This document shows, piece by piece, positions 10,182 through 56,614 of a stretch of DNA of 64,000 bases. How positions within the stretch are numbered: the stretch's first letter is position 1; the number at the start of each line of letters is the position of its first letter. The position numbers were made by a program, and so were the translations under genes. The DNA is taken from the NCBI RefSeq assembly GCF_023146395.1, contig NZ_JAGLCD010000012.1, positions 62,001-126,000 on the forward strand, written 5' to 3'. Below the pieces are notes generated by a model. It was not told the DNA's origin. It ran no database searches and was given only the letters and a program-made list of their open reading frames with translations. Source of the stretch: Aeromicrobium sp. (lineage in GTDB: Bacteria > Actinomycetota > Actinomycetes > Propionibacteriales > Nocardioidaceae).

Positions 10182-10280
10182 CCGCTCGCGAGAGAGTTTG
10201 TGTGTGCACAGGAGAGAGTTTGTTGCGGCGGTGGACCAACAAAGTCACTCGTGACCACCAACAAAGTCTCTCGCGAGCGG
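10182..10280. repeat. 22-bp-unit repeat element, inverted form (copy A1)
   Basis: The outer arms are inverted: CCGCTCGCGAGAGAGTTTGT at the left and ACAAAGTCTCTCGCGAGCGG at 10261-10280. Between them lie further units pointing inward (GAGAGAGTTTGTTG; ACCAACAAAGTC), with a unit spacing near 22 bp. The element starts 5 bases after the menE stop and ends 6 bases before the stop of the convergent oxidoreductase gene, filling the gap completely. Related copies: 18365-18473, 20466-20533, 56550-56614. Confidence 0.85.
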
Positions 10281-10286
10281 TACGTC

Positions 10287-10955
10287 TCAGTGGGTCCCGG
10301 CGGTGGCCTGGGTGACGGCCTCGAGGACGGGCGTGGTGCCGCCCACGAGGTCCCACTGCTGGCGGACCGAGCGGCCGTCGTCGACGACTGCGGCGATCAT
10401 CGAGGCGACGTCCTCGCGGGGGATCTCACCCCGGGCGACGTCGACGCCGAGCGTGACCTGCCCGGTGCCGGGGTCGTCGGTGAGGCCGCCCGGACGCAGG
10501 ATCGTCCACGAGAGCGATGAGTTGCGCAGGTGCGCGTCCGCGTCGCGCTTCGCCTCGACGTAGACGCGCCACACGTTCTCGACGTCGTCGCCGAGCGGAG
10601 CGTCGACACCGATCGCCGAGACCTGGACGAAGCGCGCGATGCCGAGCGCCTCGGCGGCCTGGGCCGACCGGATCGAGCCTTCGAGGTCGACCGTGCGCTT
10701 GCGGGCAGCGTCACCGTCCGGCCCGCCGCCGGCGGCGAAGACGACCGCGTCGGCACCCTCGAGCGCGGCCTGCAACGCCTCGTCGTCGTCGTTCTCGATG
10801 TCGAACAACCGGGTCTCGACCCCCGCCTGCTCGAGCTCGTCGGCCTGCTCCTGGCGGCGGACGAGCGCGCGCGGCTGGTGGCCGGCATGGATGAGCTTGG
10901 GATGAAGGAGGCGAGCGATCTGGCCCGCCCCTCCGACGACTGCGATGGTGGCCAT
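10287..10955 (-). CDS. NAD(P)-binding NmrA/atypical SDR family protein
   Basis: 222-aa Rossmann protein. The dinucleotide motif GGAGQIA is at residues 8-14, an acidic helix follows (RLFDIENDDDEALQAALEGADAVVFAAG), and VEAKRDADAHLRNSSLSWTILRPGGLTDDP is typical of the NmrA/YwnB group, which often lacks the classical YxxxK activity. Substrate unknown; such proteins reduce small molecules or sense the NADP state. The ATG at 10955 has a TAGGCT box 6 bases upstream. It is convergent with menE and divergent from menC. Confidence 0.8.
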   Translation of the reverse strand: MATIAVVGGAGQIARLLHPKLIHAGHQPRALVRRQEQADELEQAGVETRLFDIENDDDEALQAALEGADAVVFAAGGGPDGDAARKRTVDLEGSIRSAQAAEALGIARFVQVSAIGVDAPLGDDVENVWRVYVEAKRDADAHLRNSSLSWTILRPGGLTDDPGTGQVTLGVDVARGEIPREDVASMIAAVVDDGRSVRQQWDLVGGTTPVLEAVTQATAGTH

Positions 10956-10961
10956 GTCTCG

Positions 10962-10967
10962 AGCCTA
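10962..10967 (-). promoter_or_regulatory. Leaderless-type -10 box (TAGGCT)
   Basis: On the minus strand TAGGCT lies 6 bases before the ATG at 10955. It faces the menC box at 10984-10989, giving a very short divergent promoter region. Confidence 0.5.
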
Positions 10968-10983
10968 CGGTCGCTCGGGTGAC

Positions 10984-10989
10984 TAGGCT
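10984..10989 (+). promoter_or_regulatory. Leaderless-type -10 box (TAGGCT) of menC-menD
   Basis: TAGGCT lies 8 bases before the menC GTG at 10998 and probably drives menC-menD. Confidence 0.5.
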
Positions 10990-10997
10990 CCCTGAGT

Positions 10998-11960
10998 GTG
11001 ACGTCCTCTGCGACACCGATCGTGTTCTCGCTGCCGCTGCGCGACCGCTTCCGCGGCATCACGCGGCGTGAGGGGGTCCTGATCGTGGGCCCGGCCGGCT
11101 GGGGCGAGTTCGCACCGTTCCTGGAGTACGGCGACGCCGAGGCCCGCTCCTGGTGGGCTGCGGCGGAGGAGGCGGCCACACTCGGGTGGCCCGCACCCGT
11201 GCGCGAGCAGGTGCCCGTCAACTGCATCGTCCCGGCCGTCACGGCCGAGCGGGCCGCGGAGATCGTGCGGGCGTCGGGGTGCCGGACTGCCAAGGTCAAG
11301 GTTGCCGAGCAGGGCCAGGGCCTGGCCGACGACCTCGCCCGCGTCGCGGCGGTCCGCGAGGCGCTGGGCCCGGAGGGTCGTGTCCGCGTCGACGCGAACG
11401 GGGGATGGAGCGCTGCCGAGGCCGTGGCCGCCGTCCGCGCGCTCGACGCCGAGGTCGGGCTCGAGTACGTCGAGCAGCCCTGCCAGCGGGTCGAGGACCT
11501 CGCCCGCGTCCGGCGGGAGACCGACGTGCTCGTCGCGGCCGATGAGTCGATCCGCAAGGCCGACGACCCCTATCGCGTGGCCGAGCTCGAGGCCGCCGAC
11601 ATCGCGGTCCTGAAGGTCGCCCCGTTGGGCGGCGTGCGGGCCTGCCTGACGATCGCGGAGCAGATCGGTCTGCCGATCGTGGTCTCCAGTGCGGTCGACT
11701 CCTCCGTGGGCCTGGCTGCGGGGCTCGCGCTCGCTGCCGCGCTGCCCGAGCTGCCCTACGCCTGCGGGCTGGGCACCCAGGCGCTGCTCGAGAACGATGT
11801 CGTCGCGGACCCGCTCGCGCCGGTCGACGGGCTGCTCTCGGTGCGCCGCCCCGTCCCCGACCTGGAGCGCCTGCGTGCCGTCCGGGCCGATGACGAGCGC
11901 ACGGCCTGGTGGCTCGACCGGGTCGCCCGGGTCGCGCCGCTCGCGGGACGGCCGGCATGA
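10998..11960 (+). CDS. menC: o-Succinylbenzoate synthase MenC
   Basis: Enolase-superfamily dehydratase converting SHCHC to o-succinylbenzoate. 320 aa. The N-terminal capping domain contains LRDRFRGITRREGVLI. The barrel carries the acid-base lysine pair KVK at residues 99-101, then VDANGGWS, YVEQPC and ADESIR as metal-binding Asp/Glu positions, and LKVAPLGG as the second-lysine region. This is the actinobacterial short MenC type. The GTG start has a leaderless-type -10 box. The stop overlaps the menD ATG (ATGA), so translation is coupled. Confidence 0.9.
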   Translation: MTSSATPIVFSLPLRDRFRGITRREGVLIVGPAGWGEFAPFLEYGDAEARSWWAAAEEAATLGWPAPVREQVPVNCIVPAVTAERAAEIVRASGCRTAKVKVAEQGQGLADDLARVAAVREALGPEGRVRVDANGGWSAAEAVAAVRALDAEVGLEYVEQPCQRVEDLARVRRETDVLVAADESIRKADDPYRVAELEAADIAVLKVAPLGGVRACLTIAEQIGLPIVVSSAVDSSVGLAAGLALAAALPELPYACGLGTQALLENDVVADPLAPVDGLLSVRRPVPDLERLRAVRADDERTAWWLDRVARVAPLAGRPA

Positions 11961-13498
11961 GTGCCGCTCCGGAGTCGGTGGAGACCGCCCGCCTGCTCGT
12001 CGAGCGCCTCCTGGGGCTCGGCGCGACCGAGGCGGTGCTGGCCCCGGGGTCGCGGTCAGGACCCCTGGCGCTGGCCCTGCACGCGGCCGATGCGCAGGGG
12101 CTGATGCGGTTGCACGTCCGGGTCGACGAGCGGGAGGCCGGGTTCCTCGCGCTGGGGATGTCGAAGGTCACGGGGCTGCCGGTGCCGGTCGTCACGACGT
12201 CGGGCACGGCGGTGGCCAATCTTCACCCGGCGATGCTCGAGGCCTGGCACACCGGCGCGCGGGTCGTCGCCGTCACGGCCGACCGGCCGGCGCGCATGCG
12301 CGGCACGGGCGCCAGCCAGACCACCGACCAGCGCGAGATCTTCCCCCGGGTGAGGTTCGTCGACACGGTCGAGGGGCTCCGGCCGAGCGCCGGACCCGTG
12401 CACCTCAACCTCGAGCTCGACGAGCCCCTGATCGAGAATCGCTCGTGGTACTTCGAGGTGGAGCGGTGCGTGCCGCCGGTCCCGATGCCGATGCCGGGAG
12501 AGCAATTGGCCCCGGGGCCGCGGACGGTCGTGGTCGCCGGCGACGGCGCCGGTCCCGAGGCTCGCCGCATCGCCGACTCCGGAGGGTGGCCGCTGCTGGC
12601 CGAGCCCAGCTCCGGCGCCCGCGACGAGCACGCGATCGGCGCCTACCGGCTGATCCTGGCCGGCCACCCCGTCGCCGACCGGATCGAGCGGGTCGTGTGC
12701 CTCGGCCACCCCACGTTGTCACGGCCCGTGACCTCGCTGCTGCTGCGCGACGACATCGAGGTGGTCCACGTGGGCGGGCGCCACACCTTCCCGGGTCCGG
12801 CGGGACCGAACGTCCGGTTCGTCGATCGGGTCGACGTCGACGAGGCCGACGACACCGACTGGTTCCCCGCGTGGGTCGAGGCGGACCGGGTCGCCGGCGC
12901 GGCGATCGAGGACCTCGCGCCGGCGGCCCACCGGCTCGCTGGCGCCGTGTGGCGGGCGAGCGCCGGCGGCGTCCTCGTGGTGGGTTCGTCGTCGGTGGTC
13001 CGTGACCTCGACCTGCTGCCCCCCGGGCCGGCCCCCGACCTGGTCGTGGCGAACCGGGGCCTGGCCGGCATCGACGGCATGCTCTCGACCGCCGCGGGCG
13101 TCGCCCTCGCGGCCGGGCGACCCGCCACGGCGTTCGTCGGCGACCTGACCTTCCTGCACGGGGCGAACGGACTCCTGATCGGACCCGCCGAGCCTCGCCC
13201 CGACCTGCGCGTGGTCGTCGCGTCCGACGACGGCGGTGCGATCTTCTCACTGCTCGAGCAGGGCGCCCCGCCCTTCGCCGACGCGTTCGAGCGGATCTAC
13301 GGCACGCCCACCGGGGCCGACCTCGCGGCGCTGTGCCGGGCCCACGGGGTGGCCCACGAGATCGTGGCGGTCGACGACCTCGCCCGGGCACTCACCGTGG
13401 CGCCCCGCGGGCTCTCGGTCGTCGAGGTGCCGCTCGACCGGTCGACGCGCCGAGCCGACGCCGCGGCCCTCTCCGCGGCCGCCGTCGCCGCATTCTGA
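11957..13498 (+). CDS. menD: SEPHCHC synthase MenD
   Basis: Thiamine-diphosphate enzyme joining isochorismate and 2-oxoglutarate as the first committed step of menaquinone synthesis. 513 aa. The N-terminal PGSRSGPLALAL and VRVDEREAGFLALGM motifs contain the isochorismate-binding arginines and the glutamate that activates the cofactor. TTSGTAVANLHPA and QTTDQREIF follow, and the C-terminal diphosphate/Mg region is VGDLTFLHGANGLLI. The ATG at 11957 overlaps the menC stop; the in-frame GTG at 11909 lies inside menC and is rejected. Confidence 0.92.
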   Translation: MSAAPESVETARLLVERLLGLGATEAVLAPGSRSGPLALALHAADAQGLMRLHVRVDEREAGFLALGMSKVTGLPVPVVTTSGTAVANLHPAMLEAWHTGARVVAVTADRPARMRGTGASQTTDQREIFPRVRFVDTVEGLRPSAGPVHLNLELDEPLIENRSWYFEVERCVPPVPMPMPGEQLAPGPRTVVVAGDGAGPEARRIADSGGWPLLAEPSSGARDEHAIGAYRLILAGHPVADRIERVVCLGHPTLSRPVTSLLLRDDIEVVHVGGRHTFPGPAGPNVRFVDRVDVDEADDTDWFPAWVEADRVAGAAIEDLAPAAHRLAGAVWRASAGGVLVVGSSSVVRDLDLLPPGPAPDLVVANRGLAGIDGMLSTAAGVALAAGRPATAFVGDLTFLHGANGLLIGPAEPRPDLRVVVASDDGGAIFSLLEQGAPPFADAFERIYGTPTGADLAALCRAHGVAHEIVAVDDLARALTVAPRGLSVVEVPLDRSTRRADAAALSAAAVAAF

Positions 13499-13530
13499 CA
13501 GCGACACTGGCACGGTCAACCGACCGGGAG

Positions 13531-13536
13531 TACGGT
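13531..13536 (+). promoter_or_regulatory. Leaderless-type -10 box (TACGGT)
   Basis: TACGGT lies 6 bases before the GTG at 13543 and supports that start for the GMC oxidoreductase over the 70-codon upstream extension within menD. Confidence 0.5.
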
Positions 13537-13542
13537 GGTGGC

Positions 13543-15120
13543 GTGGGTCACAATTCCGAGGTCTTCGACTACGTCATCATCGGGTCCGGAAGCGCGGGCG
13601 GCGTCATCGCCGCCCGGCTCAGCGAGGACCCGCAGGTCCGGGTGCTGCTGCTCGAGGCAGGGCCCATGGACGACGACGACATGATCCACCTGCCGGCCGG
13701 CTTCTCGACCCTGTTCCGCACCAAGTGGGACTGGGCCTACCGCACGACGCCGCAGAAGATGCTCTCCGGGCGTCGCTCCGACTGGCCCCGGATGAAGGCC
13801 CTCGGCGGCTGCACGTCGATGAACGCGATGATCTACATCCGCGGCAACCGGGCCGACTACGACGAGTGGCGCGACGTCCATGGCGCCGACGGCTGGGGCT
13901 ACGACGACGTCCTGCCGTACTTCAAGCGCTCCGAGGGCAACCAGCGCCTCGGAGGCGAGTACCACGGGTCCGACGGGCCTCTCTGGGTCGAGGACCGCCG
14001 GTACAACCACGAGCTGACGCACGCCTTCGTCGACTCCGCGGTCGCCTCGGGACTCAAGCCCACCGACGACTTCAACGGTGCCGAGCAGGAGGGCGCCGGC
14101 CTCTACCAGGTCACGTGCCGCAAGGGTCGACGCTGGTCGGTCGCCGACGCCTTCATCCGTCCCGCGATGGACCGCCCGAACCTCACGGTGCGCACCGAGG
14201 CGTTCGTCACCAAGATCGAGCTCGACGGCACGCGCGCCACGGGGGTCACGTATCGCCGCCACGGGGTCACCGAGACGGTCAGCGCCGAGGGCGAGATCGT
14301 CCTGTCGGGCGGGGCGGTCAACAGCCCCCAGCTGCTGATGCTGTCGGGCATCGGGCCGGGTGCGCAGCTGCGCGAGCATGGCATCGACGTCGTCGTGGAC
14401 TCCCCGGAGGTCGGCCGCAACCTGCAGGACCACCCCATCACGGCCGTGCTGTTCGACACCAAGAACACGTCCGACCTGGCCGAGAGCCTGAACCTGGTGA
14501 ACCTGCTGAAGGCGCAGAAGCTCGGCCGTGGTCCGCTGAGCTCGAACGTCGCCGAGTCGGGGGCCTTTCTCAAGTCCAGCGACGACCAGCCGGCGCCCGA
14601 CCTGCAGCTGCACGTGCTGCCCACGGGCTTCTGGGACAACGGCCTCCACGAGGTCACCAAGCGCGGACTCGTCATCGCGCCCACCCTCGTGCGGGTCGAG
14701 AGCGTCGGCCAGATCACGCTCCGCTCGGCCGACCCCACCTGGCACCCCGAGATCGATCCGGCCTACTACTCCGAGCCGTCCGACCTGGACCGCATCCTCG
14801 TCGGCATGCGCACGGCCTTCGAGATCGCGTCCACCGGGCCGCTCACCCGCTACGTCGACCGCCCCTGGACGCCGAGCAGCTGGAACCCCACCGACGACGA
14901 GATCATCGCGACGATCTCGCGGCTGGGCCAGACCGTGTACCACCCGGTAGGCACGTGCTCGCTGGGCAAGGTCGTCGACGCCGACCTGCGCGTCATGGGC
15001 GTCGAGGGCCTGCGGGTGGCCGACGCCTCCGTGATGCCCCGCGTCCCGCGCGGCAACACCAACGCCCCGACCATCATGATCGGCGAGAAGGCCGCCGATC
15101 TCATCAAGGAGTCACGATGA
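13543..15120 (+). CDS. GMC-family FAD-dependent alcohol oxidoreductase
   Basis: Glucose-methanol-choline family flavoenzyme of 525 aa. The N-terminal FAD motif is GSGSAGG at residues 14-20, then LLLEAGP, and LGGCTSMNAMIYIRG for flavin contact. The active-site His467 lies in YHPVGTCSLG and the paired Asn507 in GNTNAPTIMIGEKAADLI, both conserved. It resembles choline dehydrogenase-like enzymes, but the substrate cannot be read from sequence. The stop overlaps the ATG of an aldehyde dehydrogenase (ATGA), so the pair probably oxidises an alcohol through its aldehyde to an acid. No betaine transporter or BetI regulator lies nearby. Confidence 0.88.
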   Translation: MGHNSEVFDYVIIGSGSAGGVIAARLSEDPQVRVLLLEAGPMDDDDMIHLPAGFSTLFRTKWDWAYRTTPQKMLSGRRSDWPRMKALGGCTSMNAMIYIRGNRADYDEWRDVHGADGWGYDDVLPYFKRSEGNQRLGGEYHGSDGPLWVEDRRYNHELTHAFVDSAVASGLKPTDDFNGAEQEGAGLYQVTCRKGRRWSVADAFIRPAMDRPNLTVRTEAFVTKIELDGTRATGVTYRRHGVTETVSAEGEIVLSGGAVNSPQLLMLSGIGPGAQLREHGIDVVVDSPEVGRNLQDHPITAVLFDTKNTSDLAESLNLVNLLKAQKLGRGPLSSNVAESGAFLKSSDDQPAPDLQLHVLPTGFWDNGLHEVTKRGLVIAPTLVRVESVGQITLRSADPTWHPEIDPAYYSEPSDLDRILVGMRTAFEIASTGPLTRYVDRPWTPSSWNPTDDEIIATISRLGQTVYHPVGTCSLGKVVDADLRVMGVEGLRVADASVMPRVPRGNTNAPTIMIGEKAADLIKESR

Positions 15121-16679: not shown

Positions 16680-16780
16680 CCCGGTCCGCGGGCGGCCCCG
16701 GGCCCGGCGGGCGACGAGAGTTGCCCGTCGGGTCACGTGTCGTTCACCGGCCGCCTGGCGGTGGGCCGCGTGTCGCCCCG

Positions 16781-16786
16781 TAGCCT
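16781..16786 (+). promoter_or_regulatory. Leaderless-type -10 box (TAGCCT)
   Basis: TAGCCT lies 6 bases before the GTG at 16793 of the first SGNH hydrolase. Confidence 0.5.
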
Positions 16787-16792
16787 GCAGGG

Positions 16793-17740: not shown

Positions 17741-18360
17741 CTTACGCGAACCTCGCGATCCGCGGCCGCAAGATGCGGTCGATCCTGGCCGAACAGGTCG
17801 CGCCGGCCCTGGCACTGGAGCCGGATCTCGTGTCGGTCTACGCGGGCGCGAACGACGTGCTGCGGCCCCGGATCGACATCGACGCCCTCGTGGCGGAGTA
17901 CGACACCGCCGTGGCGCGACTCTCGGAGCAGGCGCACGTCGTGATGTTCACGGCGTACGACCCGGGTGAGTCGCCGGTGTTCGCGTTCCTGCGCGGCCGG
18001 TTCGCGATCTACAACGAGCTCGTGCGCGAGGTCGCGGAGCGGCACGGGGCCACGTTGGTCGACTTCTGGCGTCTGCGGGAGTATCGCGACGACCGGTACT
18101 GGGACGTCGATCGCCTGCACATGTCACGGGCTGGCCACGAGCGCATGGCGGCCGCGGTGCTCGACGCGCTCGGCGTCGAGCACGACCTCCGGCCGCCGGT
18201 GCTGCCGCCGCCCCCGCCGCTGACGCCGGCGGAGCGCCGCTCGGCCCATCTCGCCTGGGCCCGCGAGCACGCCGGCCCGTGGGTCGGTCGTCGCCTCCGC
18301 GGCACCTCCTCCGGCGACACCCTCACCCCCCGGTGGCCCACCCCCGTCACCCCCACCTGA
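17602..18360 (+). CDS. SGNH/GDSL-type hydrolase (tandem copy 2)
   Basis: 252-aa paralogue of the preceding gene. Ser12 lies in GDSFTEG, then YANLAIRG, YAGANDVL and the Asp170/His173 dyad in DRLH. Long stretches match copy 1 (RPNGV.GWADR, IYNELVR..A.RHGAT), so this is a tandem duplication that has diverged. A proline-rich linker (PPVLPPPPPLTP) precedes a basic C-terminal tail. No secretion signal. Substrate unknown. A 22-bp-unit repeat starts 5 bases after its stop. Confidence 0.87.
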   Translation: MRFRRYVALGDSFTEGVGDADPTRPNGVHGWADRCAAALAQHDPELTYANLAIRGRKMRSILAEQVAPALALEPDLVSVYAGANDVLRPRIDIDALVAEYDTAVARLSEQAHVVMFTAYDPGESPVFAFLRGRFAIYNELVREVAERHGATLVDFWRLREYRDDRYWDVDRLHMSRAGHERMAAAVLDALGVEHDLRPPVLPPPPPLTPAERRSAHLAWAREHAGPWVGRRLRGTSSGDTLTPRWPTPVTPT

Positions 18361-18364
18361 GTAA

Positions 18365-18473
18365 CGCTCGCGAGAGACTTTGTTGGTGGCCACGAGAGAG
18401 TTTGTTGGTGGTCAGGAGAGACTTCGTGCCAACGACGTCTCTCGCCGGTACCAACAATCTCTCTCGCGAGCGG
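18365..18473. repeat. 22-bp-unit repeat element, inverted form (copy A2)
   Basis: The left arm begins CGCTCGCGAGAGACTTTGTT and carries two further direct units (CACGAGAGAGTTTGTTGG; CAGGAGAGACTTCGTG). The right arm ends with the inverted unit CAATCTCTCTCGCGAGCGG. It lies 5 bases after the SGNH stop and 4 bases before the menF stop, exactly filling a convergent intergenic gap. Confidence 0.85.
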
Positions 18474-18477
18474 AACT

Positions 18478-19734: not shown

Positions 19735-19742
19735 GACGATCC

Positions 19743-19767: not shown

Positions 19768-20463
19768 GTGAGTCGAGCCGACCTGGACAAGGACCCCCGC
19801 GAGGTCGCGAGCATGTTCGACCAGGTCGCCGCGCGGTACGACCTCACCAACGACGTGCTGTCGCTCGGACAGGACCGGCGCTGGCGTCGCGCCGTCGTTG
19901 CCCTCGTCGACCCGCAGCCGGGTGAGCGGGTCCTCGACCTCGCAGCCGGCACCGGCACCTCGTCTGAACCCTTCGCGGCAGCGGGTGCGCACGTCGTGCC
20001 GTGCGACTTCTCGCTTGGCATGCTGCGGGTCGGCAAGCGGCAGTTCCCCGACCTGCCGTTCACGGCGGGCGACGGCATGCGGCTGCCCTTCGCCGACGAC
20101 TCCTTCGACGCCGTCACGATCTCGTTCGGTCTGCGCAACATCCACGACCCGGTCGAGGGCCTGCGCGAGCTGCTGCGGGTCACCCGGCCGGGCGGGCGCA
20201 TCGTGGTGTGCGAGTTCAGCACGCCCACGTGGGCGCCGTTCCGCGGGCTCTACGTCAACTACCTGATGCGGGCCCTGCCGCCGGTCGCCCGGGCCGTGTC
20301 GTCGAATCCCGACTCGTACGTCTACCTCGCCGAGTCCATCCGTGCGTGGCCCGACCAGAAGGGGCTCGCGCTGCGGTTCGTCGAGGCGGGCTGGGGGCGA
20401 GTCGAGTGGCACAACCTCACCGGCGGCATCGTCGTCCTGCACCACTCCGTCAAGCCGGGCTGA
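19768..20463 (+). CDS. menG: Demethylmenaquinone methyltransferase MenG/UbiE
   Basis: SAM-dependent C-methyltransferase completing menaquinone. 231 aa. The N-terminal signature is [32 protein letters not shown] motif I is DLAAGTGT at residues 57-64, then [27 protein letters not shown] and the UbiE/MenG C-terminal signature ending [22 protein letters not shown] at 19768 is the first start giving the family N-terminus. Divergent from menF. A 22-bp-unit repeat begins 3 bases after the stop. Confidence 0.93.
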
Positions 20464-20465
20464 CG

Positions 20466-20533
20466 GCCAACAAAGTCGCTCGCGACCACCAACAAGGTCG
20501 CTCCTGACCACCAACAAAGTCTCTCGCGAGCGG
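20466..20533. repeat. 22-bp-unit repeat element, half form (copy A3)
   Basis: Three direct 22-base units run head to tail (CCAACAAAGTCGCTCGCGACCA and two variants), the last ending in the terminal CTCTCGCGAGCGG arm. Only the right-hand orientation is present. It begins 3 bases after the menG stop and ends 22 bases before the convergent P-loop gene. Confidence 0.85.
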
Positions 20534-20555
20534 AACCTCGAGGGTGTGGCGGAAC

Positions 20556-21092
20556 CTAGAGGGTCGTGAGGAAGGCGTCGGCGGCCGTCTGGCTCCGGAG
20601 GTGGACCAGGGCGAGGTCGGGATGGCTGAGCTGAGCCTCGGGGACGAGCGTGCGGTAGTCGTGGCGGGTGCGCCAGGCCCACCGGATGATGTGGTTCGGC
20701 TCGGTGACGATGGTGCGCAACGGAGGCTCGACGTTGCCGGCCCACAGCTCGGTGCGGTGGCGCACGCGTCCGACGGTGCGCCGGGTCAGGCGCGTCATCG
20801 TGACCCGCAGCGGCAGGTCGAGCCAGACCAGCAGCTGCGCGCGGGCCGCCAGCACAGGACGAGCCTGCGGGTACTGCCACTCGGTGACCCAGGCGTCGGA
20901 CTCGGCCAGCGCGAGCACCTCGGCGTCGAACTCGGGTCGCGGTGTCCAGGCGGGGCCGTGGTGGAGCGCGTCGAGCTCGGTGTAGGGAAGGTCCGCGGCA
21001 TCGGCGATACGCCGGGCCAGGGTGGACTTGCCGGCGCCCGGGCGCCCCGCGACGAGAACCCGTCGGACGGGGCTTTCCGGACCGGGGTGCAC
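20556..21092 (-). CDS. P-loop NTPase, adenylate/shikimate kinase-like
   Basis: 178-aa P-loop protein. Walker A is GRPGAGKS at residues 16-23; YTELDALHHGPAWTPR follows, a pattern seen in small kinases annotated as adenylate kinase-like or topology-modulation proteins. LLVWLDLPLRVTMTRLTRRTVGR gives the lid/arginine region. Acceptor substrate unknown. The GTG start at 21092 lies 54 bases from the first CRP-like site of the nuo promoter, so the two divergent promoters may share control. Convergent with menG. Confidence 0.75.
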   Translation of the reverse strand: MHPGPESPVRRVLVAGRPGAGKSTLARRIADAADLPYTELDALHHGPAWTPRPEFDAEVLALAESDAWVTEWQYPQARPVLAARAQLLVWLDLPLRVTMTRLTRRTVGRVRHRTELWAGNVEPPLRTIVTEPNHIIRWAWRTRHDYRTLVPEAQLSHPDLALVHLRSQTAADAFLTTL

Positions 21093-24224: not shown

Positions 24225-24417
24225 GCCTGCTCGCTTCGCATCGCAGTCTCACCGGCCGCCTCGCGGCTTCGCCGCGCCGTGCTTCGCACGGACCGCTGCC
24301 TCGCTTCGCTCGGCCGATGGTGGCGGCCAGTGGTGGCGGCCCGCTGGAAGCGTTGCCGCGCTTCGCGCGGACCACTGCCTCGCTTCGCTCGGCCCTCGGA
24401 TCCTCCGGGGGTTGCTC
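24225..24417. repeat. CTTCGC-rich repeat insert between nuoD and nuoE
   Basis: Low-complexity, dyad-rich DNA with many CTTCGC/GCGAAG motifs. Two near-identical blocks contain CTGCCTCGCTTCGCTCGGCC (around 24296-24315 and 24375-24394). The reverse complement of the same motif occurs at 56990-57007. The insert has no stop in the nuoE frame, but the translation is Arg/Ala/Ser-rich and unlike NuoE. A typical nuoD-nuoE junction has no such gap, so I read it as an inserted repeat. Confidence 0.65.
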
Positions 24418-47968: not shown

Positions 47969-48071
47969 GCGGCCGGCTGACCGGTCGCCGGCTGACCGGT
48001 GCACGACGAAGCTCCGGGGGTCGTGGTCGTGGTGGCGACCGTCAACCCGGGACCTTGGTCGGGCCCACGTC

Positions 48072-48119: not shown

Positions 48120-48128
48120 CGTCGTCGT

Positions 48129-49187: not shown

Positions 49188-49230
49188 GAGGGTCTCCGTG
49201 GGGTGGGTGGTGAAGGAAGGTCAGCGCCGC

Positions 49231-49334
49231 AGCGCTGGATTCGCGGCTACCGCCGCAGCGCTGGATTCGCGGCTACCGCCGCAGCGCTGGATTCGCGGCT
49301 ACCACCGCAGCGCTGGATTCGCGGCTACCGCCGC
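49231..49334. repeat. 26-bp tandem repeat, four copies
   Basis: Units start at 49231, 49257, 49283 and 49309; the core is AGCGCTGGATTCGCGGCTAC plus CGCCGC, with one base changed (CACCGC) in the third unit. It lies between two minus-strand genes, and the last unit runs into the stop codon and final arginines of the DUF2236 gene. Each unit contains AGCGCT and GCGGCTACCGCCGC palindromes. There are no unique spacers. Confidence 0.85.
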
Positions 49335-50599
49335 AGGGCGCTGCTGGCGTCGAACTCGGCCTGGCGACCGTCCATCTGCGCCTCGTACCAGTTGCGGCGG
49401 TGCCGGTCGACGACTCGCGCGTGCAGCTGACGGAGTCCGGGGATCCGGCGCAGCAGCTCGACGGTGTGCATGAGCGGCAGGCGCAGGACGACGACGAGCA
49501 GGCCGAGCCACGGTGACGGCATGTCGTAGCCCTTGCGGGTCCCTGGTGCCATCCAGAGCGCGCAGTAGGCCGCGTACACGCGGTGGTTGTAGCGGGCCCG
49601 GAGTCGGGCGAGGCCCTTCTGCCCAGGGCGCGGTGCGAACGCGGCGGGGAAGGACTCGATGAGCTCCTTGCCGGCCGTGCCGGAGTCGTACGTCCGTGCG
49701 GCCGTGGCCATCGCCAGGACCTGCAGCTGTTCGCGGATCGTCGTCGTGGCCCAGCGGGGCTGCACGCCGATCAGATGACCCATGTACCGGTTGAAGTGGA
49801 TCAGGGCGCGCATCTCCGAGGGCGTCGTGTGGACGCCAGCAAGCCACAAGGCGAGGGCCGGTGCGACCGCGCCACCGATCTGCGTCATCTGCTCGTACGT
49901 CTGACTGATCGGCAGGCCCCACGCCTCGGTGTCCCAGTCAGGGTGCTCCCCGACCCGCTTGCGCACCGAGACGTGCATGACTCGCACCATCATGGCGGTC
50001 GTCCGGGCGGCGGACCCGGGCGTCATGATCTGGCCCGGTTCGGACATGTCGATCCAGAACTTCGAGGTCTCGAGGAAGCGGCGCAGGGCGTTGTCGCCCG
50101 CGTAGCCGCCCGCCAGCGACAGCGGCATCGCGACGGCGCCCTCGGTGTAGATCTCGAGCGTGATGACTCCGGCGACGCTGAAGAGCATGGTGCCCCACCG
50201 CCGCCACACCTCGGCACCCTGCGCGACCAGGGCGGGGTCGACCCAGTCGGGGACGGTCTCGAACTCGGCGAACAGCGCGCGCATCGACTCGGGCGCGTCG
50301 GGCACGGAGTCGACACCGTGCTGGAGCGCGTGCATCAGCATCTCGCGCCCCCGGCGGTGACCGATCTCGCCGAAGAACACCTCGGCGACGAAGCGTTCCG
50401 CGACCGGGTCGCCGGCGAACAGGTCCTCGCACAGCAGCGCGGCCTGCTCATCGGTCGGGAACAGGTCGTGTCGGAAGAGTCTCTTGGCCAGGCGTTCGCG
50501 CTTCTTCCAGGCGGGCGTCTCCTTGGCTCTCCAGTAACCAAAGTTCGTCGGGCAGCGCACGTCGTCGCTGAGCGCGCGATCGGGGGAGGTCGTGGTCAT
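49325..50599 (-). CDS. DUF2236 / MpaB-type oxygenase family protein
   Basis: 424 aa, of the family now grouped with ER-bound oxygenase MpaB and latex-clearing rubber oxygenase (former DUF2236), probably a b-type haem protein. Conserved features: GEIGHRRGREML, the central RTTAMMVRVMHVSVRKRV with candidate haem-ligand His and Arg, and LIHFNRYMGHLIGVQPRW. MpaB-like enzymes cleave prenyl or polyisoprene chains. With the CrtC/AttH-like neighbour this suggests an isoprenoid or other hydrophobic substrate, which is inference. No signal peptide. The last codons belong to the tandem repeat region. Function in this organism unknown. Confidence 0.75.
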   Translation of the reverse strand: MTTTSPDRALSDDVRCPTNFGYWRAKETPAWKKRERLAKRLFRHDLFPTDEQAALLCEDLFAGDPVAERFVAEVFFGEIGHRRGREMLMHALQHGVDSVPDAPESMRALFAEFETVPDWVDPALVAQGAEVWRRWGTMLFSVAGVITLEIYTEGAVAMPLSLAGGYAGDNALRRFLETSKFWIDMSEPGQIMTPGSAARTTAMMVRVMHVSVRKRVGEHPDWDTEAWGLPISQTYEQMTQIGGAVAPALALWLAGVHTTPSEMRALIHFNRYMGHLIGVQPRWATTTIREQLQVLAMATAARTYDSGTAGKELIESFPAAFAPRPGQKGLARLRARYNHRVYAAYCALWMAPGTRKGYDMPSPWLGLLVVVLRLPLMHTVELLRRIPGLRQLHARVVDRHRRNWYEAQMDGRQAEFDASSALRR

Positions 50600-50609
50600 G
50601 GCTGTCCTG

Positions 50610-51048: not shown

Positions 51049-51074
51049 GGCACCTCCTCGTGTCCGACACGATG

Positions 51075-51096
51075 AACCATACATAGGTGTACGGTT
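51075..51096. promoter_or_regulatory. Palindromic TetR-type operator
   Basis: A 22-base dyad of form AACC-N-TACA-N4-TGTA-N-GGTT between the multicopper-oxidase remnant and the divergent TetR gene. Size and position suit autoregulation and control of the minus-strand DUF2236/CrtC-like group by the adjacent TetR. Confidence 0.6.
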
Positions 51097-51101
51097 TGGA
51101 T

Positions 51102-51117
51102 TGTGACAGCCCTCACA
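51102..51117. promoter_or_regulatory. CRP/GlxR-like palindrome upstream of the TetR gene
   Basis: TGTGACAGCCCTCACA is a perfect TGTGA-N6-TCACA. It is centred about 50 bases before the transcription start inferred from the TAGGCT box at 51148. Confidence 0.55.
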
Positions 51118-51147
51118 GTGGTCGGGCAAGGCCCTGCCGGTCCCGAC

Positions 51148-51153
51148 TAGGCT
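51148..51153 (+). promoter_or_regulatory. Probable -10 box (TAGGCT) of the TetR gene
   Basis: TAGGCT with transcription expected near 51160, leaving a 20-base leader that carries the GGGGGAGG ribosome site of the TetR gene. Confidence 0.45.
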
Positions 51154-51179
51154 GGGCCGCGACCGAATGGGGGAGGGTG

Positions 51180-51737
51180 ATGGCACCGCGAACCGCGCGG
51201 CTCAGCGCGCAGGACTGGACCCGTGGAGCACTCGACCTGCTCATGGCCGAGGGTGTCGCCGCGCTGCAGATCAATCGACTCTGCGCCGACCTCGGAGTGA
51301 CTCGTGGCAGCTTCTACTGGCACTTCGCCGATCTCACCGAGCTGGAGGCGGCGGTCGCAGAGCGATGGTGCGAAGAGACTCGGGAGCGCCTCGACCAGTT
51401 GGCCGAGCTCGACCGCCTGCCGCCACGCGAGCGACTCCGGATCATGACACTGCACCTGATCGACGATGCGAGCTGGAGCGTCGAACGCGCGCTGCGCGAG
51501 TGGGCCCGGAGCACCCCTCAGGTCGCTGCGGTCGTCGGCGAGTCCGACCAACACGTCTTCGAGTTGGTCGAGCGGGCCATCGTTGAGCTCGGTCACGACC
51601 CGACGGTGGCGCGCACGAGGGCCGGCCTGCTGGTCTATGCCGGCATCGGGTTCGCCCACGGGCAGTCGACGCTCCCCAAGCCCACCGAGGCCGACGTCGA
51701 CCAACTGCTCGACTTCCTTGCCGAGCCGGCGAGCTGA
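51180..51737 (+). CDS. TetR/AcrR-family transcriptional regulator
   Basis: 185 aa. The N-terminal helix-turn-helix is INRLCADLGVTRGSFYWHFADLTEL, the canonical TetR DNA-binding signature. The C-terminal ligand domain (SVERALREWARSTPQVAAVV; LLVYAGIGFAHGQ) is not conserved enough to name an effector. The ATG at 51180 has a purine-rich GGGGGAGG site. It is divergent from the oxidase remnant/DUF2236/CrtC-like group, with a palindromic operator between, so that group is its likely target. Confidence 0.88.
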   Translation: MAPRTARLSAQDWTRGALDLLMAEGVAALQINRLCADLGVTRGSFYWHFADLTELEAAVAERWCEETRERLDQLAELDRLPPRERLRIMTLHLIDDASWSVERALREWARSTPQVAAVVGESDQHVFELVERAIVELGHDPTVARTRAGLLVYAGIGFAHGQSTLPKPTEADVDQLLDFLAEPAS

Positions 51738-51759
51738 TGATCCCGTGGCCCGCTGATCG

Positions 51760-52518
51760 TCAGGAGCGGCGCAGCAGGGGCCCGCGGTGGACCTTCTTGT
51801 TGCTGGCCTGCGCGAGCGGGCGCACGACGAGCAGGTCGACGTTGACGTGCGCCGGTCGACCCACGACCCAGCCGATCGTCTGGGCGATGTCCTCGGCCGA
51901 CAGCGGGTCCTCGACGCCCTCGTAGACCGCGTCGGCACGCTCCTGCGAGCCCAGGCGCACGAGGGAGAACTCCTCGGTCTGCACCATGCCGGGGGCGATC
52001 TCGGTGACTCGGACCGGACGACCGTTGAGCTCCAGGCGAAGCGTCTCGGTGGCGGCGGCCACGGCGTGCTTGGCCGCGACGTAGCCGCCGCCGCCCTCGT
52101 ACACCCAGTGGCCGGCCGTCGAGCCGACGTTGACGATCGTGCCCGCGCCGCTGGCGTCGAGGGCCGGCACCAGCGCCCGGGTGACCTGGACCATGCCGAT
52201 CACGTTGATCTCGTACATGCGGCGCCACTGGTCGACATCGGCCTCGGCGACCGGGTCGACGCCGAGCGCGCCCCCGGCGTTGTTGACGAGTACGTCGAGC
52301 GTGTCGCCGACGGTCTCGGCGAGCCGGGCCACGGCGGCGGCGTCGGTGACGTCGCACGCGACGGCCGTGCCGCCGATCTCTGCGGCCAGGGCCTCGAGGC
52401 GGTCCACGCGACGGGCTGCGCAGAAGACGCGGAAGCCGGCGGCGGCGAGCTCGCGGGCGGTGGCGGCGCCGATGCCGCTGCTGGCTCCGGTGACGACGGC
52501 GGTGCGGGGACGGGTCAT
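51760..52518 (-). CDS. Short-chain dehydrogenase/reductase
   Basis: 252-aa classical SDR. The NAD(P) motif TGASSGIG is near residue 11, then NNAGGALG, the serine of NVGSTAG, and the catalytic pair YVAAK. An Arg-rich segment after the second beta strand ([12 protein letters not shown]) suggests NADP preference. It resembles serine/3-hydroxy acid dehydrogenase-like SDRs (YdfG type); substrate not known. Convergent with the TetR gene and divergent from mshA. Confidence 0.85.
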
Positions 52519-52658
52519 GTCACCATCGTGCCGCGCCGCCGTGGCCGGTGCCTGCCGGGGTCAGCGCGCGGCGTCCGCGAGCGTGCCGGGAGGCCCGGGA
52601 CGCCCGGGCCGCGAGAGCCGCAGGTAGCGGATTTCGGCGCGTGGGAGATGATGGCCAG

Positions 52659-53915
52659 GTGAGTGTTCGACGGGTGGCCATGCTGTCGGCCCACACCTCA
52701 CCGCTCGCGCAGCCGGGTGACGGTGACGCCGGCGGCATGAACGTCTACGTCATGGAGCTCTCGCGCCGACTCGCCGCCCGCGGCGTCGAGGTCGAGATGT
52801 TCACCCGTGCGACCTCGCGCCACCAGGAGTCGTGGGCCCAGGTGGCCCCGGGCATCACGGTGCGTCACGTCGCCGCCGGTCCGTTCGAGGGCCTGCGCAA
52901 GGAGGACCTCCCGGCGCAGCAGTGCGCCTTCGTCCGCGACGTGCTGCGGGTCGAGGCCGAGCACGGTCCCGACTACTTCGACCTCGTGCACTCGCACTAC
53001 TGGTTGTCAGGCCAGGTCGGCACCGTGGTCCGCGACCGCTGGGGCCTGCCGCTGGTGCACTCGATGCACACCATGGCCAAGGTCAAGAACGCGCTGCTCG
53101 CCTCCGGCGACGCCCCCGAGCCCCTCGGACGGGTCCGCGGCGAGGAGGAGATCGTCCGCCTCGCCGACCGCCTCGTGGCCAACACCGACGACGAGCGGGC
53201 GCAGCTCATCGGCCTGTACGACGCCGATCCCGAGCGGGTCGACGTCGTGCACCCCGGCGTCGACCTCGACCGCTTCCGGGCGGGCCGTCGGGCCGAGGCC
53301 CGCCGCCGGCTCGGCATCGCCCCCGACGTCGCTCTGGTGCTCTTCGCCGGCCGGATCCAACCGCTCAAGGCGCCCGACCTCGTCGTGCGGGCGGCCGCCC
53401 GACTGCTCGCCGACGACCCGGGCCTGCGCTCGCGTCTGCAGGTCGCCGTCGTGGGTGGTGCCTCCGGGTCCGGGCTCGAGCGCCCCACCTCGCTCGCCGA
53501 TCTCACCGACCGGCTGGGGCTGACCGATGTCGTGTCGTTCGTGCCCACGGTGCCCCAGGCCGAGCTCGCCGACTGGTACGCCGCGGCCACGGTGGTGTGC
53601 GTGCCGTCGCACAACGAGTCGTTCGGTCTCGTCGCGATCGAGGCCCAGGCGTGTGGCACCCCGGTCGTGGCGGCGCGGGTCGGGGGACTCCCCACCGCGG
53701 TGGCCGACGGTGTCAGCGGGGTCCTCGTCGATCGTCAGGACCCGGCCGCCTACGCGGCCGCCCTGCGGCCGTTCGTGCTGGATCCGGGCCTGCGCGACGC
53801 GATGGGGGCCAAGGCCGTCCTGCACGCCGAGGGCTTCAGCTGGGACATGACCGCCGAGAGCACCCTCGCGTCCTACGCCGCCGCCAGCCAAGGAGTCGTC
53901 CGTGTCCCCAGCTGA
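52659..53915 (+). CDS. mshA: D-inositol-3-phosphate glycosyltransferase MshA
   Basis: First enzyme of mycothiol synthesis, transferring GlcNAc from UDP-GlcNAc to 1L-inositol-1-phosphate. 418 aa, GT-B fold (GT4). The signatures are close to mycobacterial Msh[78 protein letters not shown] and the nucleotide-sugar site [26 protein letters not shown]. The GTG at 52659 gives the family N-terminus. ybjN overlaps its 3' end by 14 bases, as in many actinobacteria. Confidence 0.93.
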
Positions 53916-54405
53916 TCCGTCACCGCGCGAGGTCATCCTCCACGCGCTCACCGAGGCCGAGCTCGATCACACCGAGCACTCGCCCGGGGTGTTCGACGTC
54001 GACCTGCCAGGTGAGCGCAAGCTCACGACCTCCGTCCGGCTCGAGGTCGGACGCCACTCGCTCGGCATCCACGCCTTCGTCGCGCGGCGTCCGGACGAGA
54101 ACCACGAGGGCGTCTACCGGTGGCTCCTGGAGCGCAACCTCAAGCTGTTCGGGGTGGCCTTCGCCGTCGACGCCGCGGGTGACATCTACCTCGACGGCCG
54201 GCTGCCGCTGCACGCCGTGACGCCCGACGAGATCGACCGGCTGCTCGGCGCGGTCCTGACCTACGCCGACGAGTCGTTCAACGTGATCCTCGAGCTCGGC
54301 TTCGCCTCGTCGATCCGCAAGGAGTGGGCGTGGCGCGAGTCGCGCGGCGAGTCGACCCGCAATCTCGAGGCGTTCACGCACCTGCGGCCCGACAGCAGCA
54401 GCTGA
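53902..54405 (+). CDS. YbjN-domain protein
   Basis: 167 aa of the YbjN family (type III secretion chaperone-like fold). [49 protein letters not shown] and [22 protein letters not shown] are characteristic. The exact role is unknown; the linkage mshA-ybjN-gpm is conserved in actinobacteria, as in Mycobacterium tuberculosis. The GTG start has AAGGAG upstream, inside the mshA end. Confidence 0.82.
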
Positions 54406-54466
54406 CCGACGCCGGCGTCGCTCGGGGCAGGCTCCCGCCACGACCCGCGTGACCGGCGTGACTCGC

Positions 54467-55069
54467 TCAGCCGTGCACGGCGCCGTTCGTCAGCACCGCC
54501 TGCACGAACTCACGGGCGTAGCCCTGCTCGCGCAGGTCCTTGAAACCGTTCTGCGTGAACCGGTTGACGCGCTCCCGGCTGACCGTGCAGCGCACCGGGC
54601 CCATGGGTCCGTTCAGCTCGACGTCGCCCTTGGGCGCGAGCGCGCTGAGCTGCCGGATCCGCAGGTGCGTGCACGGCACCTGCCAGTCGGGGGCGTCGGC
54701 ACCGTCGCGCGTGAAGGCCAACCGGCCACCGACGAGGTCGATCCGGCCGAACGTCGCGTTGAGCGAGCCACCCATCGCGCCCAGGAAGCCGCCGCCGGGG
54801 ATCATGGCGTCCCACGTGCCGTCGACCGCCCCAGGTCGTGGGGGTGGCGCGACCGAGCCGTCCGGGGCGGGGCCGGGGCCCACGGGAGGCCGTGGTCCGA
54901 GGTCGGGCCGCGTCCGCCGCGTCGCCGAGAGCGTGAAGACCGTGACGAGCAGCACGATGAGGGCCGACGCCCCCAGGGCGACGAGCACCACGACCCCCGT
55001 CACCGGTCGACCTCGTCCACGGGCCCATTCTCCCAGGCCGCTCGCGGCCCGCGCGGCGCGTGGCGTCAC
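54467..55069 (-). CDS. Hypothetical single-pass membrane protein
   Basis: 200 aa from the GTG at 55069; a GTG at 55003, closer to the helix and preceded by GAGG, is a good alternative start. One hydrophobic helix (VTGVVVLVALGASALIVLLVTVFTL), a Pro/Arg-rich linker (about residues 50-80), then a C-terminal globular region with LNATFGRIDLVGGRLAFTRDGADAPDWQVPCTHLRIRQL and the tail EFVQAVLTNGAVHG. I do not recognise the family. Divergent from the DsbA-fold gene. Confidence 0.65.
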   Translation of the reverse strand: MTPRAARAASGLGEWARGRGRPVTGVVVLVALGASALIVLLVTVFTLSATRRTRPDLGPRPPVGPGPAPDGSVAPPPRPGAVDGTWDAMIPGGGFLGAMGGSLNATFGRIDLVGGRLAFTRDGADAPDWQVPCTHLRIRQLSALAPKGDVELNGPMGPVRCTVSRERVNRFTQNGFKDLREQGYAREFVQAVLTNGAVHG

Positions 55070-55079
55070 GCCCCGCCGG

Positions 55080-55085
55080 TAGCGT
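55080..55085 (+). promoter_or_regulatory. Leaderless-type -10 box (TAGCGT)
   Basis: TAGCGT lies 7 bases before the ATG at 55093 and supports that start. Confidence 0.5.
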
Positions 55086-55092
55086 GGGACCC

Positions 55093-55773
55093 ATGAAGGC
55101 CACGCTGTTCGTCGATGTCACCGACCCGTGGTCGTTCATCGGCGCCACGCGGTTCACCCGGGCGGCGGCGACCTACACGATCCTGACCGGTGAGCCCGTC
55201 CGCACGACGCTGCGGGCGCACCTGCTCGAGCCGGACGTCGTGTCCCAGGGTCGTCCGCTCATGACGGCGCTGGCCGAGCGGCTCGGCGGCGCCGACAAGG
55301 CCGAGCTCATGAACATCCGGGTCACCGGAGCGGCACGCATCACCGGGATCGACCTGAACTTCGAGGACGCCGTCGAGGCGAACTCCTTCGACGCCTGGCG
55401 CCTGCTCACATGGGCCGACGAGGCCGGACCCGGCGTGCAGTACGACCTGGCCCAGCAGCTCTGGCGGGCCCACCTGCTCGAGGGAGCCGACATCGCCGAC
55501 CACCTCGTGCTGGCCACGCGGGCCGCGCTGGTGGGCCTGGACCTCGAGACCGCGGAGGCGCTCCTGGCGAGCACCGAGTACGCCGACGCGGTCCACGCCC
55601 AGCACGCCGCCTCGCTCGAGATCGGTGCGCTCGACGTGGGATTCGACCAGCTCCCGGCCATCGTCGTCGACGACGAGTGGTCGCTCTCGGGCGTGTACTC
55701 CCAGCACGACTACGTGCAGTCGCTCGAGAAGGTCCGCAACGAGCGTGGCGAGCCCTGGCCGGAGAACCGCTAG
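55093..55773 (+). CDS. DsbA-fold (FrnE/GST-kappa-like) protein lacking the CxxC motif
   Basis: 226 aa with the thioredoxin-plus-helical-insertion layout of the DSBA/FrnE family. Where FrnE proteins have DVxCPWCxIG, this one reads DVTDPWSFIG (residues 8-17), so both redox cysteines are replaced by Asp11 and Ser14. A serine there is reminiscent of kappa-class GST. The cis-proline region FDQLPAIVVDDEWSLSGVYSQ is present. It cannot be a classical disulfide oxidoreductase; a thiol-conjugate role (mycothiol, given nearby mshA) is only a suggestion. Confidence 0.75.
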   Translation: MKATLFVDVTDPWSFIGATRFTRAAATYTILTGEPVRTTLRAHLLEPDVVSQGRPLMTALAERLGGADKAELMNIRVTGAARITGIDLNFEDAVEANSFDAWRLLTWADEAGPGVQYDLAQQLWRAHLLEGADIADHLVLATRAALVGLDLETAEALLASTEYADAVHAQHAASLEIGALDVGFDQLPAIVVDDEWSLSGVYSQHDYVQSLEKVRNERGEPWPENR

Positions 55774-55787
55774 ACCTTCCGGATCGG

Positions 55788-55793
55788 TAGGCT
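55788..55793 (+). promoter_or_regulatory. Leaderless-type -10 box (TAGGCT) of gpmA
   Basis: TAGGCT lies 7 bases before the gpmA ATG at 55801. Confidence 0.5.
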
Positions 55794-55800
55794 CGCGGTC

Positions 55801-56547
55801 ATGACTTACACGCTCGTCCTGCTGCGCCACGGGCACAGCGAGTGGAACGCCAAGAACCTGTTCACCGGTTGGGTCGACGTCGACCTCAACGAGCAGGGCG
55901 TCGAGGAGGCGGGCCGCGGTGCCACGCTCCTGGCCGATGCGGGTCTCGCGCCGGACGTGTCGCACACGTCGCTGCTGCGCCGGGCCATCCGGACCTCGCA
56001 GATCGTCCTGGACGGCATCGACCGGCACTGGATCCCGGTCAAGCGCTCCTGGCGGCTCAACGAGCGTCACTACGGCGCGCTCCAGGGCAAGGACAAGAAG
56101 GCCACGCTGGAGGAGTTCGGCGAGGAGCAGTTCATGACGTGGCGCCGGTCGTACACGACCCCGCCGCCGCCCCTGGCCGACGACTCGGAGTTCAGCCAGG
56201 CCGAGGACCCGCGCTACGCCGCGCTGCCGGACGAGCTCCTGCCGCGTACCGAGTGCCTGGCCGACGTGCTCGACCGGATGCTGCCCTACTGGTACGACGA
56301 GATCGTGCCGGACCTGCTCGACGGCCGCACGGTGCTCGTCACGGCGCACGGCAACTCCTTGCGGGCGCTCGTCAAGCACCTCGACGGGCTCGGCGAGGAC
56401 GAGGTCGTGGGTCTCAACATCCCCACGGGCATCCCGCTGGTCTACGAGCTCGACGCCGACCTGCGCCCCACGGTGCCCGGTGGCACCTACCTCGACCCCT
56501 CCGCCGCGGAGGCCGCCATCGCCGCCGTCGCCAACCAGGGCCGCTAG
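55801..56547 (+). CDS. gpmA: 2,3-bisphosphoglycerate-dependent phosphoglycerate mutase
   Basis: Glycolytic interconversion of 3- and 2-phosphoglycerate. 248 aa. [23 protein letters not shown] contains the phosphohistidine His10; [42 protein letters not shown] and [17 protein letters not shown] (second catalytic His) follow. This is the dPGM type. Synteny with mshA-ybjN and senX3-regX3 matches mycobacteria. A 22-bp-unit repeat begins 3 bases after the stop. Confidence 0.95.
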
Positions 56548-56549
56548 TA

Positions 56550-56614
56550 CCGCTCGCGAGAGAGTTTGTTGGTGGTCACGAGAGACTTCGTTGGTGGTCA
56601 CGAGAGACTTCGTG
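56550..56614. repeat. 22-bp-unit repeat element, half form (copy A4)
   Basis: Left-hand orientation only: the terminal arm CCGCTCGCGAGAGAGTTTGT followed by two 22-base units of form GGTCACGAGAGACTTCGTTG. It begins 3 bases after the gpmA stop and ends about 25 bases before the start of the tandem TfoX-N gene, so this copy is not between convergent genes. Confidence 0.85.

Follow-up and report, generated by a model that had tools for sequence, protein, structure and literature searches.

What is the repeat that recurs a few nucleotides behind stop codons in the Aeromicrobium sp. DNA analysed here, a stretch of 64,000 nucleotides (hereafter the window), and in which form would it act? Four copies lie in the window exactly where a sequence-only reading had placed them, and the stop codons and distances it had given for menE, an SGNH gene, menG and gpmA agree with ours. 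The unit is 22 bp long, TRF reported a period of 22 at three of the four copies, and the copies are capped by CCGCTCGCGAGAGA. When up to three mismatches were allowed, a 21-letter pattern of the unit matched 10 times in the window, compared with 0.02 matches expected from dinucleotide shuffles.

Two copies are, as had been proposed, inverted pairs occupying the space between two convergent stop codons. The full element at 10182..10280, to which no strand is assigned, carries 2+2 units, with a left arm at 10182-10225, an 11-nt centre at 10226-10236 and a right arm at 10237-10280; it is flanked by the menE stop (10175-10177) and by a convergent minus-strand NAD_binding_10 gene whose stop begins at 10287. 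The second full element (18365..18473, likewise strandless) consists of about 3+2 units and is enclosed by the stops of two convergent genes, the SGNH/GDSL gene (18358-18360) and a minus-strand chorismate-binding gene (from 18478). The other two copies are half elements, as had been described, with the unit count corrected to three each. The plus-strand half element at 56550..56614 has its cap 2-4 nt past the gpmA stop (56545-56547), and the downstream gene starts at 56639. The minus-strand half element at 20466..20533 does adjoin the menG stop (20461-20463), but it is the uncapped end that lies 2 nt past this stop, whereas the cap faces the opposite, minus-strand gene, which ends at 20556. 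The 24-nt distance between this cap and the opposing stop would be accounted for by a 19-bp tandem duplication (20532..20573, no strand) lying between them.

Placement and build of the family

Rather than only these four copies, the window's genome assembly (2.8 Mb, 83% complete) holds 17, and the gene-end position holds in this assembly and in three related species. The 84 copies examined are short, extragenic repeats dispersed at gene junctions, a few of which overlap called genes according to our own gene calls. They are not placed at random relative to genes: 52 lie at convergent, 32 at tandem and none at divergent junctions, compared with 27, 182 and 79, respectively, among other junctions, and 91 of the 142 outer caps lie no more than 12 nt past a sense stop codon, a zone that holds 4.7% of intergenic positions. 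Distances from cap to stop are most often 5-6 and 2 nt and are not spread over the gap, and the end of an element can itself supply the stop codon (TGACC). In 14 of the 84 copies no cap lies 12 nt or less from a stop. Copy numbers exclude two isolated three-mismatch matches (G042:C1:495421 and G040:C1:109242), which were dropped before counting without being fetched, and in genome G031 11 of about 23 match clusters were fetched.

The caps are nearly invariant among the 142 examined from four species, and their 8-nt core, CTCGCGAG, is the only self-palindromic part. The end consensus reads CGTACC, ATTACC or ATGACC, and six-letter ends starting with CGTC are rare. Unit-to-unit spacing is 22 bp in 137 of 142 cases, and within an arm the unit recurs every 22, not 11, bp. 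Inverted arms occur in 58 of the 84 copies, a full copy carrying 3 to 6 counted units. Among these 58 full elements the cap-to-cap length (84 to 149 bp, with a centre of 0 to 43) falls into classes with a period of 10.7 bp (R 0.94; 10.50-10.92 in a bootstrap over 27 site groups). Several centres read GTGGACAGGAG. The 11-nt centres were at first taken for unrelated sequence, and many of them turned out to be half a unit, which weakens the argument from phasing. The two arms of an element do not covary; they match worse than shuffled arms (18.28 versus 18.75 of 21), none of 5000 shuffles was as low, and the same result was obtained with one element per site group.

Folded as RNA, full elements reached a median z of -9.1 (n = 18), and the two in the window -6.5 and -10.2. 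Half elements folded little better than shuffles (median z -1.4, n = 26), and the two in the window gave -1.8 and -0.9. A T-run terminator scan found no G+C-rich hairpin followed by a T-run at the four window copies, a weak negative because the scan exceeded chance nowhere in the scanned parts (3 and 2 sites versus 2.7 and 3.1 in shuffles).

A different repeat, inverted and with a constant 36-nt step, was found in G007, G019, G027 and G039, first 11 nt past a stop in G019. As a parallel family it was rejected; among the loci listed most lie tens to hundreds of nucleotides from called genes, although some are closer. Its constant step means that a fixed length alone is no proof of helical selection.

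Distribution and comparison between species

A sequence-only profile built from 58 of the 142 arms was run against 49 genomes of the genus, 123 candidates being scored per genome under stricter filters. The family was present in four related Aeromicrobium species, with 28, 40, 40 and 88 matches, and the other 45 genomes gave none, apart from G043, where a single match was borderline (E 0.006). With 44 of the 49 genomes lacking any match and this single borderline one, a diverged version in other species was set aside. The four carriers form one clade; one is the named strain Aeromicrobium sp. Leaf350, and two of the four genomes are only 83-84% complete.

Most sites are common to several species, but the number of units, the number of arms and the sequence of the unit vary. 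Of the 23 sites in G040, 19 recur in G042, and of the 17 in G000, 15 recur in G040; half elements are also held in common (e2/e33/e66, e6/e27/e77 and e3/e32). At four sites the block is missing from a relative, which shows that it was added there; no target-site duplication was evident by eye. Furthermore, e21 and e30, at different loci of one genome, are 99% identical while their orthologues differ, and G042 has its own unit version. The proposal of a non-autonomous element inserted at gene ends thus stands as far as block addition at four sites goes, with no mobility protein found in a search that covered the REP-associated tyrosine transposase (PF01797): none of nine genomes, including the four carriers (two of them at 83-84% completeness), had a match.

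In one place two half elements flank a gene of 310 aa that has no Pfam or NCBIfam match. Each half sits behind the stop of an outer neighbour (a DUF349 and a RelA/SpoT gene), and therefore an autonomous element around this gene is not claimed.

Known systems and alternative explanations

The impression that the repeat belongs to no named family was borne out in the collections queried. The window had no Rfam match at gathering scores, and a known RNA family was rejected on this result; one copy had no match in plasmid and phage collections, nor an 18-letter pattern in viral contigs, and on these searches a plasmid, phage or viral origin was rejected. Literature searches returned no title naming this repeat, although an earlier description may still exist. 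Iterons of plasmid replication origins also consist of tandem units of close to 22 bp, or some two turns of the helix. Unlike iterons, the present elements are dispersed at gene ends, often as facing pairs, and the one copy queried had no similar stretch in the plasmid collection.

REP and BIME repeats are the nearest in kind. They too are short repeats dispersed between convergent or tandem genes, where they occur alone or as two that face each other. Passages of PMC3733652 place most convergent REPs of P. entomophila and S. wittichii less than 20 bp from a 3' end and describe GTAG ends as a frequent source of the stop codon, just as the element end can supply it here. In contrast to the single hairpins of REPs, the present units stand in tandem at 22 bp, their end consensus has no GTAG or CGTC tag, and half elements do not behave as 20-40 bp imperfect palindromes. 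A classic REP was rejected on this folding, on the end tag and on the lack of a PF01797 match in the nine genomes. Since REP and BIME repeats also lie near stop codons, we call the family related in kind to something known, yet a distinct variant. The DNA uptake sequences that serve as terminators in Neisseria and Pasteurellaceae likewise place a short conserved repeat downstream of genes as inverted pairs; those signals are 9-11 nt long and number about 1000 or more per genome (passages of PMC1852404), whereas the assembly here has 17 elements, built of 22-bp units and in some cases lacking an inverted counterpart.

Several explanations were weighed. A selfish REP- or MITE-like repeat without host function, which would have spread in a common ancestor of the four carriers, surviving mainly between gene ends where an insertion does least harm and homogenised by exchange between loci, is a somewhat doubtful candidate: the four sites with a block-free relative, the near-identical e21 and e30, the unit version peculiar to G042 and the restriction to one clade all accord with it. 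Against it, cap distances are most often 5-6 and 2 nt instead of being gap-wide, the high proportion of shared sites indicates little movement since the split, and PF01797, the only transposase family searched, had no match in the nine genomes. We regard as unlikely an RNA signal at 3' ends, in which the long hairpin of a full element would end transcription without a T-run, block 3' decay or affect the terminating ribosome near the stop. The strong folding of full elements agrees with this, as does ribosome stalling reported for REPs within 15 nt of a stop (passages of PMC12306157). Three results nevertheless count against selection acting on an RNA stem, namely the poor folding of half elements that are even so common to several species, the arm mismatch and the steps of ~10.7 bp; the terminator scan, itself no better than chance, lent no support. 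Of the 3'-end RNA signal suggested by the sequence-only reading, a 3'-end signal may stand, its RNA form being weakened by poor half-element folding and by arms without covariation.

The remaining alternative, that the element is a strong DNA gyrase site at gene ends which, like E. coli BIME-2, relieves positive supercoiling between converging genes, appears improbable. BIME-2 is likewise a mosaic of opposed repeats at gene ends, convergent ends dominate here, and the 10.7-bp length period comes near the GC periodicity of 10.75 bp seen in the flanks of the 130-bp motif for gyrase in E. coli (passages of PMC6379681). However, the element varies in length and centre where a gyrase site would have a fixed central segment, units within an arm recur at 22 rather than 11 bp, and the gyrase motif is degenerate whereas the caps are nearly invariant.

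A candidate boundary behind stop codons

Our tentative preference is for clade-specific gene-end elements acting as double-stranded DNA, as phased arrays of factor sites that form a two-way boundary; the factor, its binding and its effect on transcription we infer. Each half would consist of a cap and a tandem array of 22-bp sites recognised by a putative sequence-specific DNA-binding factor, and a full element of two such arrays facing each other in helical register. Bound right behind a stop codon, an array may serve as a roadblock against RNA polymerase entering the next gene, and where genes converge it would act from both sides. We counted for this boundary model the gene-end placement, the near-invariant caps, the 22-bp steps, the 10.7-bp period, the arm mismatch and the poorly folding half elements common to species. 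We counted against it the strong RNA folding of full elements, length steps that may also arise by copying of 22-bp units or half-unit centres between elements, the constant 36-nt step of an unrelated repeat in the genus, the 14 copies without a cap near a stop, and the near-identity of some copies from separate loci of one genome, which a spreading repeat would show. A more specific version, which we consider unlikely as it stands, is a dedicated protein-dependent punctuation of gene ends, in which a clade protein would bind the phased 22-bp arrays right behind stop codons as a two-way roadblock between convergent genes and would co-evolve with its sites, so that units at a given gene end would differ by lineage.

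There is not yet a settled account of how gene ends are marked in high-GC bacteria where classical T-run terminators are missing. The four closely related species offer a natural series, in which the same gene ends occur with no element (in relatives), with a half element or with a full element, and with this series the idea that a DNA-bound array terminates transcription at gene ends can be put to a direct test. If instead the selfish repeat is the true explanation, the family would exemplify cleanly how a repeat can keep to the ends of genes with no REP transposase.

Copies, anatomy, and placement of the element

The sequence-only reading had reported four copies of a 22-bp-unit repeat in the window, at 10182-10280 (menE), 18365-18473 (an SGNH gene), 20466-20533 (menG), and 56550-56614 (gpmA), and all four were found at these places; the unit pattern gave 10 matches in the window versus 0.02 expected. 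In the assembly that contains the window (G000; 2.82 Mb, 21 contigs, 83% complete), 42 matches with at most three mismatches were detected, compared with none for the reversed control, and they grouped into 17 elements, each of which was inspected with its flanks. Together with 23 copies from G040, 33 from G042, and 11 of about 23 from G031, three related Aeromicrobium genomes, the collection comprised 84 copies. Each half element consisted of a cap, at its conserved outer end, and two or three units, while 58 of the 84 copies were full elements, with two arms facing each other across a centre. The unit step was 22 bp in 137/142 spacings (the remaining five were 4, 4, 4, 18, and 21), and centres measured 0-2, 10-12, 20-22, or 33-34 bases in 55 of the 58 full elements and 7, 29, and 43 in the other three. 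Beside the window copies, a 19-bp tandem duplication lay between the menG half-element cap and the opposing stop (20532-20573), and a TfoX_N-domain gene (56639-57112) immediately followed the gpmA half element.

Outer caps lay no more than 12 nt behind a sense stop codon in 91 of 142 cases, a placement shared by 4.7% of intergenic and 0.8% of all positions in the same stretches; 70 of the 84 copies had at least one such cap and 14 had none, with genes called by our own codon-bias script, so that single stops may be wrong, and with copies at shared sites not independent. Copies occupied 52 convergent, 32 tandem, and no divergent junctions, and the other junctions of these stretches numbered 27, 182, and 79, respectively. 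The conserved end extends about six bases past the cap core and often reads CGTACC, CGTTCC, ATTACC, ATGACC, or CTGACC. Therefore, at the commonest cap-to-stop distance of 6 nt (34/142 caps) the element starts directly behind the stop codon, and the 13 caps lying at 2 nt belong to copies whose end itself provides the stop codon.

Distribution and site variation among carriers

Across 49 genomes of the genus, the unit pattern matched 42 times in G000, 52 in G031, 59 in G040, and 74 in G042, and 0-2 times in all others. Family-wide, among 341 genomes and with at most two mismatches, matches occurred only in these four carriers, plus a single one in G041; an element profile search agreed, with one borderline match in G043. 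One exact 29-letter pattern recovered 16 stretches from named genomes, four in Aeromicrobium sp. Leaf350 and 12 in MAG nzgw105, records very near the window's genome possibly being excluded. In a 22-row tree of gltD (a presumptive name, like corA, uppP, and DUF255-type below, given from the sequences), the four carriers formed one branch (support 100/98), and G042 fell outside the other three at 94/86, under the tool's mark for firm support.

Most sites were shared: 19 of 23 G040 copies had a copy at the orthologous G042 gene end, and 15 of 17 G000 copies had one in G040. Unit number, arm number, and unit sequence could nevertheless vary between species at a given site. The site of copy e1 held a full element in G000 and G042 and a half in G040, and that of e12 a full element in G042 and a half in three species; G042 also had its own unit version, 39 of 57 outer units there carrying TTAC rather than TTGG. 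Copies e21 and e30, at different loci of one genome, were 99% identical, and their orthologues differed, a sequence pattern that points to exchange between element copies.

Sites without the element were compared as well. The gpmA 3′ end bore none in G042, and gpmA itself was not found in G031 in the search made. In the noncarrier G011, 6 nt separated gltD from the GTGACTCG motif before the next gene, where carriers have an element, and the corA/uppP stops, with a full element between them in G042, were 1 nt apart; G031 and G040, also compared at this locus, had other downstream sequence. The DUF255-type gene was 15 nt from the opposing stop in G011 and 49 nt in G018. No clear target-site duplication was seen at the sites compared with and without the element. 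That the family is simply a selfish repeat appears rather unlikely to us.

At two loci, a reading frame lay between two copies. In G042, an extra 226-aa frame without a match in a family search was flanked by two full elements, 96% alike (L118 2479-4218), and G000, G040, and G031 had one element only at this site. A gene of about 310 aa, matching nothing in Pfam or NCBIfam, lay between two half elements in G040, G000, and G042 (L093 2521-3619, L041 2495-3593, and L106 2430-3570, respectively), with a DUF349 gene on one side and a RelA/SpoT gene on the other; its product may resemble AbiEi/DUF559-type proteins.

Arm sequences and length steps

Full elements folded strongly as RNA (median z -9.1; 18 of 58 folded) as is inevitable for an inverted pair, and half elements folded weakly (median z -1.4, n = 26), including those in the window. 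If a stem were selected, the arms of one element should match better than random arms. The match within elements was lower than in shuffled pairs (18.28 versus 18.75 of 21), a value reached by none of 5000 shuffles, and the result was the same when each site group contributed a single element; position 13 was unequal between arms in 16 of 19 groups of the three related carriers, and only one of 58 full elements had identical outer arms. An RNA signal is an unlikely explanation. Perfect palindromes are unstable in DNA, and their avoidance could explain the poor arm match. In the hairpin formed by a second, unrelated repeat of the genus, letters of the inner stem seem, by eye, to vary in pairs, whereas the element shows no arm covariation.

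The cap-to-cap lengths of the 58 full elements fell into classes of 84-86, 94-96, 106, 116-118, 127, 139, and 148-149, with a best period of 10.7 (R 0.94; bootstrap over site groups, 10.50-10.92). When each of the 27 site groups was represented by a single element, the mean best R was 0.95, compared with 0.61 for the best of 2000 random sets, and all 53 between-species pairs at one site gave length differences of 0-2, 10-11, 21-24, or 31-33. Such steps are what a face-of-the-helix constraint predicts. Alternatively, 22-bp units and half-unit centres copied between elements would give steps of 11, and several centres indeed read as half units (GTGGACAGGAG); this modular origin fits slightly worse (rms 0.76 versus 0.58; R 0.911 versus 0.944), although the margin is small.

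Relation to other repeats and a candidate role

The intergenic, convergent, and stop-adjacent habit is common to REPs and this family: passages of PMC3733652 describe GTAG REP ends that often provide the stop codon, and passages of PMC12306157 report that REPs no more than 15 nt from a stop stall ribosomes. The placement at stops, the most striking point of the sequence-only reading, is therefore also documented in a repeat of another kind. Because these habits are shared, whereas a self-palindromic unit, an end tag, and a RAYT transposase (no PF01797 match in nine genomes) are lacking, the family may work somewhat like a BIME and is not classed as a member.

Other repeats were also noticed. 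The unrelated hairpin repeat mentioned above, CATCGGTGGATCCTCAAC ... GTTGAGGATCCACCGATG, with a 36-nt step and some copies in tandem arrays, matched between 11 and 82 times per genome in another group of Aeromicrobium genomes (G007, G019, G027, and G039; e.g., L209, L213, and L227). In the window, a tandem array of the 26-bp unit CGCCGCAGCGCTGGATTCGCGGCTAC (49225-49336; 4.3 copies, 97% matches) lay near a minus-strand gene's 3′ end, and another intergenic repeat, GCCGAGCGAAGCGAGGCAG, occurred at 24276-24410 and 56974-57070, with a similar string behind gpmA in G018.

A gyrase role has some appeal, since passages of PMC6379681 give a period of 10.75 bp for the E. coli gyrase motif and describe BIME-2 as a target of the enzyme, but element length is variable and the caps are strict, which makes this role improbable. 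The near-invariant caps, phased units, stable half elements, and lack of arm covariation point instead to double-stranded DNA recognized by a putative protein. RNA polymerase can be blocked by DNA-bound proteins, as passages of PMC10310618 describe. The location at gene ends suggests that such a DNA array may form a boundary between transcription units, the explanation that we favour tentatively, at somewhat less than even confidence.
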